Program-made: the position numbers and the translations under genes
The notes under the pieces: model-generated
Told to the model about the DNA's origin: nothing
The model's database searches: none
The model's input: the letters and a program-made list of their open reading frames with translations, nothing else
In this document: positions 26,346 to 35,331 of the stretch, one piece after another
How positions within the stretch are numbered: position 1 is the stretch's first letter
Layout of the letters: the number at the start of each line of letters is the position of its first letter
Assembly: GCA_013289585.1 (NCBI GenBank)
Contig: JABCZR010000003.1
Coordinates: 186,001 to 250,000 of the forward strand
Direction of reading: 5' to 3'
From: Acidobacteriota bacterium
Lineage (GTDB): Bacteria; Acidobacteriota; Terriglobia; Acidiferrales; UBA7541
Length of the DNA stretch: 64,000 bases

Positions 26346-26419
26346 TTGTACATATACGTACAAATATCATTACTTGTACGAATTCATACAAGAATAAAAA
26401 CTTGTACATTTTTGTACAA
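26346..26419. promoter_or_regulatory. Three-copy operator array upstream of satD
   Basis: Three palindromes of the form TTGTAC-N6-GTACAA start at 26346, 26374 and 26402, an exact 28-bp pitch. Sites 1 and 3 are perfect; site 2 has right arm ATACAA. The third covers a plausible -35 (TTGTAC, 26402-26407), 17 bp from a TATCCT -10 (26425-26430), so a bound protein would block the satD promoter. Two more copies follow satD. Confidence 0.85.
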
Positions 26420-26445
26420 GTAGCTATCCTTGCCAAGGGTGCCCT

Positions 26446-27090
26446 ATGCCTTCAAAAACCTATGCGGTGTTGATCGCGGACGTGATGAAATCGCGCACCC
26501 GGGCGGATCTCCGCGGCTTGCTCGGGAAAAAGCTCGCCGCCATTTCCAGGCGCCATTTGCGCCGCAAGCTCATCCAGCTGCCATATTCGGTTACCGCCGG
26601 CGATGAATTTCAGACCGTTACCCGCAACCTCCCGTCGCTTCCCCTCGTCATTCAGGAGCTCCGCACCGCTCTCCGGCCGCTGTCTCTCCGTATCGGTGTC
26701 GGAGTCGGCAAAGTCCCTGGCCGCATTCAGTCGCCTGTGAACCGCCTCGGCGGCGAGGCCTTTCAATTCGCGCGGAGAGCCATCGAAAACATCAAGACCG
26801 GCAATCACTTTAAATTCCAGGTTTTGACCTCTTTTGTGTCTCGCCATGAGGAATTCAACAAAACCATCAATCTGATCTACGGACTCCACGACACCCTGGT
26901 GCTCAAGATCACCGCGCGCCAGTGGGAGACCATCGAAGCATTTCTCGGCACCCGAACGCTCGAGCAGACCGCCAGACGCCTCAAGCTCGACCCCTCCACT
27001 GTTTCCAGAAATCTCAAACGGGGGTATTATTGGCAAGTAACTGAAACTGTCCATGTAGCTGGATCGTTAATCAGGCGTACTTTTTGCTAG
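26446..27090 (+). CDS. SatD-family protein (cyclase-like domain plus C-terminal HTH)
   Basis: 214 residues. The start MPSKTYAVLIADVMKSR fits the SatD family. Motif order resembles class III nucleotidyl cyclases: Asp12 in LIADVMKS, GDEFQ at 52-56, RIGVGVGKV at 82-90, and GGEAFQFARRA at 102-112 (compare G-x-x-V-N-x-A-x-R). Residues about 157-195 form a sigma-region-4-like HTH (ARQWETIEAFLGTRTLEQTA, then RLKLDPSTVSRNLKRG). SatD function is not established; the cyclase resemblance is my inference. It is flanked on both sides by the TTGTAC palindromes and probably binds them. Confidence 0.82.
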   Translation: MPSKTYAVLIADVMKSRTRADLRGLLGKKLAAISRRHLRRKLIQLPYSVTAGDEFQTVTRNLPSLPLVIQELRTALRPLSLRIGVGVGKVPGRIQSPVNRLGGEAFQFARRAIENIKTGNHFKFQVLTSFVSRHEEFNKTINLIYGLHDTLVLKITARQWETIEAFLGTRTLEQTARRLKLDPSTVSRNLKRGYYWQVTETVHVAGSLIRRTFC

Positions 27091-27136
27091 TTGTACGAAA
27101 ACGTACAAATCCGGGAATTTGTACATAATGATGCAA
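27091..27136. promoter_or_regulatory. Two-copy operator array between satD and the DUF3307 gene
   Basis: TTGTACGAAAACGTACAA at 27091-27108 is perfect. A second, weaker copy starts at 27119 (right arm ATGCAA), again at the exact 28-bp pitch. The second overlaps the ATG at 27128 of the DUF3307 gene, so binding could also affect its translation start or transcription. Confidence 0.78.
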
Positions 27137-27925
27137 ATCCTATTTCGAGCTTTTCTGGCGATTTATCTGGCTCATCTGCTGACCGATTTTGTGTTTCAAA
27201 CACATGGCCTTGTCGAGCGAAAGCGGCGGGGGAAGCTTCCTGCCTATTTGCTCCATGGTTTTGTTCACTATCTTTCTGCAGTTACCATCGTCAGTTTCGT
27301 CCTCCCCGGTTCGCTGTTTTCGTTGCGTATGCATCTTGTGATTGCCGTGCTTACGCTCGTTCATCTGCTGATCGATTTTGCCAAGATCGAGCTCGCGCGA
27401 AAGTACGCCGCGTGCGACGGCTCATGGGCCTACGTAAGCGATCAACTCGTTCACCTGCTGACCGTCATTCTCGCGGCATGGCTGCTGTCGCCTGCGGTAC
27501 CTTTCAGCGAACTCATCTCGTTGGTCCAAAATTCCCGTGCGATGCCCAACAAGTTTCTTGCCGTGCCGGCGATTTATGTTGGCGTTGTGTTTGGCGGCGG
27601 ATACCTGATCCGTTTCCTGGTTCGTTCCCTGGCCGCCGGCGTGAGAAGCCATTCGCCGGAAAGACCCAGCGAGCAATTGCAAAACGCGGGCCTGTACATC
27701 GGATGGCTGGAACGCTTCCTCGTTATTACTGCGCTGCTTCTGCAATCTCCAGCGACGGTCGGCCTCATCCTGACGGCGAAATCCATCGCCCGCTATCCCG
27801 AATTCAAATCCGAGCGCTTTGCGGAATACTTTTTGATTGGCACGCTGCTGAGCATTTCCATGGCGATTCTCGGTGGAGCGCTTCTCGCGAAGCTCCTTTT
27901 TGGGCAGATACGATTCTCGGGATAA
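27128..27925 (+). CDS. DUF3307 integral membrane protein
   Basis: About 265 residues with roughly seven membrane segments. Conserved polar motifs lie in or next to the helices: AHLLTDFVFQTH, LHGFVHYLSAV, LVHLLIDFAKIELARKY and DQLVHLLTVIL, a repeated His-x3-Asp pattern suggesting a metal site or membrane enzyme. This is the pattern of DUF3307, often found beside satD. ATG 27128 is the first ATG; ATG 27131 is adjacent. No good ribosome binding site is visible because the operator sits there. Function unknown. Confidence 0.8.
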   Translation: MMQILFRAFLAIYLAHLLTDFVFQTHGLVERKRRGKLPAYLLHGFVHYLSAVTIVSFVLPGSLFSLRMHLVIAVLTLVHLLIDFAKIELARKYAACDGSWAYVSDQLVHLLTVILAAWLLSPAVPFSELISLVQNSRAMPNKFLAVPAIYVGVVFGGGYLIRFLVRSLAAGVRSHSPERPSEQLQNAGLYIGWLERFLVITALLLQSPATVGLILTAKSIARYPEFKSERFAEYFLIGTLLSISMAILGGALLAKLLFGQIRFSG

Positions 27926-34854: not shown

Positions 34855-35331
34855 TTAACGCGCGGAAGCAGCTGCGGGAGCGGATTCTTTTTCGAGAAGT
34901 TGTTCTTTGCGGTACACAAGCGAATTGATGTCGTAAGTCGCCAGTTCAAAGCCATGCCCGTGCGTAATGGCGTCGGTCGGGCATGCCTCCACGCAATAAC
35001 CGCAAAAAATGCACCGTGAATAGTCGATGTTGTAAACGCTGGCGTACCGCTCGCCTGCTGAGATACGGTTCGCATCGACGTTTTCCGCGGCTTCGATGTA
35101 AATGCAGTTTGCCGGGCAAGCCGCCGCGCACAGGAAACATCCGACGCACTTTTCCAGGCCGTTTTCATCACGGTGCAGGACGTGGATTCCGCGATACCGC
35201 GGCTGAAAGTGTACCGGCTCATACGGGTAGTTTTCCGTCACCGTCTTGCGAAACATATTGCGAAAAGTCACGCTGAAGCCTTTCACCAGGGCCCCAGCGG
35301 TCTCCACAACTTCCCGAATGATGGATGCCAT
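34855..35331 (-). CDS. nuoI: NADH-quinone oxidoreductase subunit I (orphan)
   Basis: 158 residues with the two 4Fe-4S motifs of NuoI: CVGCFLCAAACPANCIYIEA and CIFCGYCVEACPTDAITHGH. The N-terminus (VVETAGALVKGFSVTFRNMF) is the membrane-associated helix. In complex I it carries clusters N6a and N6b to quinone. No other nuo gene is present, so it is either a detached copy or the only I subunit encoded away from a nuo operon. The residues that bind clusters are intact. Confidence 0.92.
   Translation of the reverse strand: MASIIREVVETAGALVKGFSVTFRNMFRKTVTENYPYEPVHFQPRYRGIHVLHRDENGLEKCVGCFLCAAACPANCIYIEAAENVDANRISAGERYASVYNIDYSRCIFCGYCVEACPTDAITHGHGFELATYDINSLVYRKEQLLEKESAPAAASAR

Follow-up and report, generated by a model that had tools for sequence, protein, structure and literature searches.

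Rows of palindromes at a 28- or 29-bp pitch beside satD genes suggest that SatD represses its own operon

The satD locus and its operator array

The window (the whole stretch of DNA analysed, 64,000 nucleotides) contains a satD gene followed by a DUF3307 gene, with five palindromic sites in two groups, one upstream of satD and one between the two genes. The features are given below by window position; no strand is assigned to the palindromes.

26346..26363, no strand: operator copy 1, TTGTAC-N6-GTACAA with 0 mismatches, kept in relatives
26374..26391, no strand: operator copy 2, 1 mismatch
26402..26419, no strand: operator copy 3, 0 mismatches, left half a probable -35 box
26402..26430, plus strand: probable satD promoter, TTGTAC (26402), 17 bp, TATCCT (26425-26430)
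26446..27090, plus strand: satD, 214 aa, PF16264 with E 2.2e-16
26446..26904, plus strand: SatD residues 1-153, nucleotide-cyclase/GGDEF/palm-like domain
26914..27024, plus strand: SatD residues 157-193, helix-turn-helix (HTH) by model, recognition helix STVSRNLKRG
27091..27108, no strand: operator copy 4, 0 mismatches, immediately 3' of the satD stop codon
27119..27136, no strand: operator copy 5, 2 mismatches, right half ATGCAA containing the DUF3307 start codon
27131..27925, plus strand: DUF3307 gene, 264 aa from ATG 27131, PF11750 with E 5.4e-17
Flanking genes: a DinB-family gene upstream and a MOSC-domain gene downstream

The first-pass annotation had described five TTGTAC-N6-GTACAA sites on an exact 28-bp pitch, three of them perfect, and this was reproduced: sites start at 26346, 26374, 26402, 27091 and 27119, the in-group distances are 28, 28 and 28 bp, and copies 1, 3 and 4 have no mismatch. 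Copy 3 and the downstream pair are 689 bp apart. At up to two mismatches the window contained six matches, namely the five array copies and one at 34900, and shuffled windows gave a mean of 0.49 and a maximum of 3, with 0/100 shuffles reaching six. When the genome itself (4.73 Mb) was searched at up to one mismatch, TTGTAC-N6-GTACAA was found at five places, four of them in this array, and the reversed control pattern at three. The half-site is better written TTGYAC/GTRCAA than TTGTAC/GTACAA. All three exact matches to TTGYAC-N6-GTRCAA in the genome lie in the satD array, and at up to one mismatch there were 21 places against 18 for the reversed control. Since exact matches occur only here and the rest is background, the sites appear to serve the satD locus; a global regulon was rejected, there being no signal above background in this genome.

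The earlier suggestion that copy 3 covers a -35 box is plausible, as TTGTAC at 26402 is followed after 17 bp by TATCCT at 26425, which by consensus reading has 4/6 letters of TATAAT; in four relatives (L055, L065, L066 and L069) TATAAT stands in the same register as the window's -10. The reported overlap of copy 5 with the DUF3307 start codon was borne out, ATG 27131 being the most likely start: in the window and its relatives the final listed site ends in ATGCAA in 17/36 loci and in ATGCAT in three more, which favours this ATG.

Conservation at the satD genes of close relatives

A scan of GTDB genomes with a SatD alignment gave 52 satD loci. Two peptide patterns were used, and since one of them was the recognition helix, its constancy in the nearest loci (L036-L070) is in part built in by the method; the scan made no use of DNA sites. 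Palindromes at a 28-bp pitch near other satD genes, for which the first-pass annotation had proposed a search, were found: all 35 nearest loci (at least 39% identity to the window SatD) carried at least one flank site at up to one mismatch, 34/35 had a 28-bp step, and the remaining one (L065) a 29-bp step. None of the 17 more distant satD loci (0/17) carried a TTGYAC-type site at up to two mismatches in the flanks. Outside satD flanks, 340,525 positions held no exact site, one with one mismatch and 25 at up to two. Distances between site pairs were collected for the window and the 35 loci at up to two mismatches upstream and up to three downstream; 28 bp occurred 76 times, and 27, 29 and 32 bp once each. 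Of the other distances, 10 (10 pairs) and 18 (6 pairs) come from half-sites of adjacent copies and 56 (16 pairs) from two steps; the remainder were 38 (3 pairs), 84 (2 pairs), and 55, 60 and 65 (once each).

Across the class, a tandem array at up to two mismatches was found in 30/299 genomes, and with the reversed control in 0/299. PF16264 was matched in 32 genomes of the class, including 26 of the 30 bearing an array. The four array-bearing genomes without a PF16264 match are G199, G256, G283 and G042. G199 has a partial satD (L053, residues 80-214 matched). In G256, two operator copies at 28 bp lie between genes judged by eye to be the same DinB and MOSC genes (L207, 1736-1781), with no satD or DUF3307 frame between those genes, and this array is probably a relic of a deletion. 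The arrays of G283 and G042 without satD are unexplained exceptions; that of G283 (L192, 1501-1546) is a perfect TTGCAC tandem array; no satD can be recognised near it, and it is preceded by a sigma-factor-like frame and a small one. A second tandem array was observed in G274 (contig C306, L204, 132-177); the satD of this genome lies elsewhere, and the array precedes by about 370 bp a frame resembling a sensor kinase. Among the six satD genomes without an array call, G190 and G277 have more degenerate sites, G130 has a 29-bp step, G033 has two exact sites that stand singly beside decayed copies (this genome entered only its own single-site inspection), and G103 and G185 carry other SatD types.

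A fixed pitch across the SatD family

SatD matches were found in 52/118 genomes of the genus of the S. anginosus locus, 18/296 of Actinomycetota (17 over the cut-off), 54/299 of Bacillota (53 over the cut-off), 2/147 in the class of L071 and 4/95 in the phylum of L074. For Streptococcus, 30 of the 52 matching genomes were read; from the 54 matching Bacillota genomes, 26/30 loci among the matches listed were used, and from Actinomycetota 17/18 loci. L153 (truncated start), L162 (internal stop), L135 (weak, HTH only), L136 and L166 (repeats) and L137 (streptococcal genome) were dropped, and L010-L035 were left out as the same loci as L036-L070 or the window. The resulting 135 loci, in 50 clusters at 50% identity, include same-genome repeats (L076/L107, L077/L092, L084/L129, L074/L169, L075/L171 and L078/L170) that share a cluster in the 50-cluster analyses. 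The frame of L133 was too short for protein alignment, and this locus entered the motif-free pitch scan only.

That scan covered positions -180 to +6 of the 135 loci for two palindromes of any letters at any pitch from 19 to 45. With one random draw of one member per cluster, the best pitch was 28 or 29 in 28/50 clusters (18 at 28, 10 at 29), as against 7.6% of 2,000 shuffles and 3/50 clusters for a stretch inside satD; without the TTGYAC and Streptococcus/Gemella clusters it was 28 or 29 in 20/41. The other 22/50 clusters had no best pitch of 28 or 29. The pitch was looked for only at satD, the control inside satD being the sole other stretch.

Twenty-six of 31 streptococcal and Gemella loci had exactly three sites of the type TKTCCRTTATAAYGGAMA at up to five mismatches, and 56/59 adjacent steps were 28. 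This consensus was drawn up after reading those loci, and its background was 52 sites in 111,814 positions at up to five mismatches. At one streptococcal satD (L103) the candidate sites numbered five, of which four stand at 28-bp steps. A search of plasmid records with the window SatD gave two haloarchaeal matches (L208 and L209), both of them SatD-DUF3307 pairs; each locus has four palindromes, arranged as two pairs at 29 bp. Their palindromes are of GTTCGC/GTTCGG type and scored 22 against a shuffle maximum of 18; the two loci took no part in building the test, their SatDs are near-identical to each other, and the shuffles kept single bases only.

Family-wide, then, the proposed search for palindromes at other satD genes succeeded in spirit, with the same pitch and other letters. 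Within the loci compared, it is the pitch, rather than the operator letters, that is the family trait of SatD, which the first-pass annotation did not foresee. Chance origin of the array is ruled out by the shuffles, the genome-wide counts, the relatives, the class-wide control and the family pitch.

Operator letters and the recognition helix

Helix classes, which were drawn up after reading the loci, pair with half-sites as follows: ST[VAL]SR with TTGYAC, QNV.KR with CACC/GGTG, Q[AN][VI]SK[QH] with CAAC/GTTG, and S[AST][FL].KR with TKTCC. Exact CACC-N8-GGTG stood in the satD flanks of 7/9 QNV-type clusters, with at least two copies in four, and was absent from 2/9; it was found in 0/5 STxSR, 0/3 Q[AN][VI]SK[QH], 0/5 S[AST][FL].KR and 3/30 other clusters. 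The QNV clusters come from Acidobacteriota together with the phylum of L074 (one cluster), Bacillota and Actinomycetota. Three loci without a 28/29 array in the motif-free scan (L159, L165 and L148) nevertheless have one, three and one exact CACC-N8-GGTG, respectively. At least two exact copies of CAAC-N8-GTTG were present in 3/3 Q[AN][VI]SK[QH] clusters and in none of any other class.

Operator similarity was correlated with protein identity over 46 loci with a pitch of 28 or 29, an even spacer and a shuffle p <= 0.05, thinned at 80% identity; as loci were preselected by pitch, this tests the letters and not the pitch. The partial r was 0.50 for helix identity given the N-terminal domain (0/2000 permutations) and 0.30 for the N-terminal domain given the helix. 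In AT-rich streptococcal loci (e.g. L102, L108 and L114), which entered the correlation, the best register is sometimes the spacer. Among 758 pairs with N-domain identity below 40%, the 19 with helix identity of at least 0.6 had a mean operator similarity of 0.70, against 0.23-0.29 for the remaining pairs; these 19 comprise nine in the TTGYAC group (mostly with L070) and ten of QNV type. By these comparisons, the operator letters follow the recognition helix of SatD beyond general relatedness. In each of two genomes, G142 and G150, there are two SatDs (25% and 23% identical, respectively), one satD having CAACC-type operators and the other TTGYAC-type.

SatD and its partner protein

The window SatD scored 60.6 bits with PF16264 against a cut-off of 29 and thus meets membership. 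Its AF2 model has a pLDDT of 91. D12, S16, G52, D53, G86 and G103 were invariant in 50/50 cluster representatives, and E54 was kept in 48/50. The C-terminus, which had been called an HTH in the first-pass annotation, is predicted to be helical in an HTH-like arrangement, in keeping with that call, though all Pfam HTH matches lay below their cut-offs. In NCBIfam, SatD matched a sigma-factor HTH and a Csm3 model, both below threshold, and the DUF3307 protein matched nothing.

The DUF3307 gene matched PF11750 with 62.4 bits against a cut-off of 23, DUF3307 being the usual, not the defining, neighbour of SatD. From its helices, its product is inferred to be a membrane protein of unknown function; the structure model is modest (pLDDT 77.6) and had no match below E 1 in a PDB search. 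With a profile of the window partner, a relative was found downstream of satD in 113/135 loci and 41/50 clusters, and some loci without one are contig ends. The profile also matched the partners of L125, L168 and L009 and those of L057, L059 and L008, the last three having no Pfam DUF3307 match. By eye, the window at 27600-27900 and these six loci have in common a C-terminal segment, AGxxIGxLER...AKSIARYPEF. As the profile catches partners that Pfam does not, the constant companion of SatD seems to be this common C-terminal part.

With respect to mobile elements and defence, the S. agalactiae SatD had no match in 50,697 phage records. PADLOC gave no convincing defence match for SatD, the best being a CARF model aligned to the HTH (E 0.0042, 14.8 bits), and none for DUF3307 proteins; a known anti-phage defence system was rejected on this ground.

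Proposed mechanism and alternatives

We consider it very probable that SatD represses its own operon, with HTH-bound dimers, packed at 28 or 29 bp, covering the promoter. Palindromes over the gene's own promoter with HTH-specific letters fit an autoregulatory repressor with an array, the promoter being a consensus reading. The autoregulation suggested in the first-pass annotation is supported; binding, cooperativity and repression themselves are inferred. A SatD dimer would bind each 18-bp palindrome through its C-terminal HTH; neighbouring dimers would touch at the fixed 28-bp step (29-bp in some lineages) and bind cooperatively; and, as the promoter boxes overlap the sites, the bound dimers would block the satD promoter and so repress both satD and the DUF3307 gene. 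Copies 4 and 5, which lie across the junction of satD and DUF3307, may block read-through or an internal start into DUF3307, and we infer either a roadblock or a looping partner of copy 3. The N-terminal nucleotide-cyclase-fold domain may serve in sensing or in dimerization, probably with a nucleotide and metal ions bound, the ligand being an inference. The purpose, likewise inferred, would be to keep a harmful membrane protein low.

The 28-bp pitch might be thought to follow from the layout of sigma-70 promoters (-35, 17 bp, -10) rather than from protein packing, and some relatives do have the left half-site as the -35 box, with the -10 following after 17 bp and, in several loci, ending where the next site begins. 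Other relatives, however, have TTGACA upstream and the -10 within copy 1, again at a pitch of 28; the streptococcal operator sites contain a TATAAT-like core; the downstream pair is mostly at 28 too; and the two haloarchaeal loci hold a 29-bp pitch in organisms without sigma-70. The same pitch in two promoter registers and in archaea must come from the protein, and promoter geometry, to which we give very little credence, is rejected as its cause. It is scarcely credible that the palindromes act as RNA hairpins controlling translation or decay. The sites are self-complementary and copy 5 covers a start codon, but the variable position in 73 exact TTGYAC-N6-GTRCAA sites is T/A in 37, C/A in 18, C/G in 10 and T/G in 8; the 18 non-pairing C/A sites mean that the variation is not kept complementary, and on their account the hairpin was rejected. 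The upstream copies, moreover, themselves hold promoter boxes, and the letters follow the HTH.

No binding assay links SatD to the sites, and a few arrays have no recognised satD nearby, so a DNA-binding protein encoded elsewhere might read them, satD being merely a regulated gene. We regard this as improbable. The operator letters track SatD's own recognition helix, the pitch is the same beside satD in bacteria and archaea, and a single outside regulator does not explain two operator types at the two SatDs of one genome. It is unlikely, though less so, that SatD activates, or that the two genes form a toxin-antitoxin-like module, with SatD also neutralizing the DUF3307 protein directly. We know of no toxicity of the DUF3307 protein and of no contact of it with SatD. 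The frequency of a window-like downstream partner would suit such a module, as would satD being essential yet accessory in S. pyogenes, according to the accessible part of PMC11323703. Against it, the sites overlap the -35/-10 region, which favours repression, and PADLOC gave no convincing match.

Self-repression by stacked SatD dimers also has a geometrical consequence, in that 3 x 28 bp = 84 bp is, by arithmetic, eight B-DNA turns at 10.5 bp, so that three dimers would sit 120 degrees apart. An extended reading, which we offer only tentatively and think rather less likely than not to hold in full, is that SatD forms a separate class of nucleotide-sensing, perhaps nucleotide-making, repressors in bacteria and archaea: dimers would stack at the 28/29-bp step, three would wrap all faces of the promoter, and a nucleotide would open the stack and release a harmful DUF3307-type membrane effector. 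Such release would account for the essentiality of satD in S. pyogenes despite its being an accessory gene, essential-like behaviour being expected of the repressor of a harmful neighbour (toxicity of DUF3307 not having been shown).

Rows of palindromes 28 or 29 bp apart at satD in many unrelated bacteria and two haloarchaea thus suggest that SatD is bound there and keeps its own gene and the neighbouring membrane-protein gene off. If true, this would give the SatD family its first molecular function, that of a local transcription repressor with readable operators. It would make testable the puzzle of why satD is the one accessory gene that acts as essential in S. pyogenes, since loss of SatD may release the neighbouring DUF3307-type gene. 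A pitch constant at 28/29 bp while the letters change would be protein packing geometry readable from genomes, and the invariant aspartates of the cyclase-fold domain raise the possibility that a nucleotide is the signal, cyclase activity being inferred at most.

Comparison with known systems

No described SatD operator was found in the literature on SatD, DUF3307, the sat genes or the motif, most subscription papers being outside the scope of the search. The Streptococcus sat operon encodes the same protein family as the window SatD, and in S. agalactiae the gene after satD is DUF3307 (E 2.6e-32), as in the window; in S. mutans this gene is named satE. The streptococcal operator letters, TKTCC...GGAMA, differ from those of the window. 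Earlier labels for satD, so far as the available parts of the sources go, are acid tolerance, the role attributed to the sat operon as cited in PMC11323703 and the only label in PMC10326533, and, in one table, 'DNA-binding protein', where it is also an sRNA target (PMC12005413). In S. pyogenes, where 178/249 genomes carry it, satD is reported as the only accessory gene to rank in the uppermost quarter for essentiality (PMC11323703), and SatD is reported to be among the greatest protein changes of a lineage (PMC10210942).

Toxin-antitoxin and abortive-infection operons such as HigBA and AbiE consist of two genes, like satD-DUF3307, and the HigBA antitoxin is a promoter-bound repressor, according to the portions available of PMC6987408 and PMC3985639. 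They differ in that no toxin is known at the SatD locus, where the partner is a helical, membrane-like protein.

The fold of SatD residues 1-153 matched GTP cyclohydrolase III (Z 10.7), class III cyclases and Cas10/Cmr2 (Z about 9 each) and the diguanylate cyclase SiaD (Z 8.6). For the class III cyclase fold, Z was 8.6-9.6 over 125-140 residues, which is a fold match and not membership; identity of SatD to class III cyclases, GGDEF proteins and the Cas10 palm is low (12-21%), and SatD is fused to an HTH. D12 and D53 presumably stand at the places of the cyclase metal ligands, without residue-level superposition.

Proteins of the PucR/CdaR type, such as MabR (Rv2242) and BAD_0249 (which we take to be PucR-type), have a GGDEF-like domain followed by a C-terminal HTH, a layout that the model suggests for SatD as well. 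Ranked by E-value, they head the Foldseek matches of that model (3onq, 2.5e-5; 9f80, 4.3e-5), with a poor global fit (TM 0.26-0.37, rmsd 14-16). SatD shows a PucR-like feature in a very weak HTH_30 match, but the PucR HTH PF13556 stayed below its cut-off (13.5 bits against 27) and the GGDEF-like domain PF17853 did not appear among hits to E 1, a range in which weak matches are often lost to HMMER filters, so that SatD fails both Pfam tests of PucR membership. No 28-bp operator array was met for the PucR/CdaR type, the literature not having been queried by that phrase. In the accessible part of PMC11617747, MabR consists of a GGDEF domain without catalytic motifs and a C-terminal HTH, whereas SatD has the invariant D12 and D53. 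PucR-type regulators such as MabR are the closest described layout to SatD.
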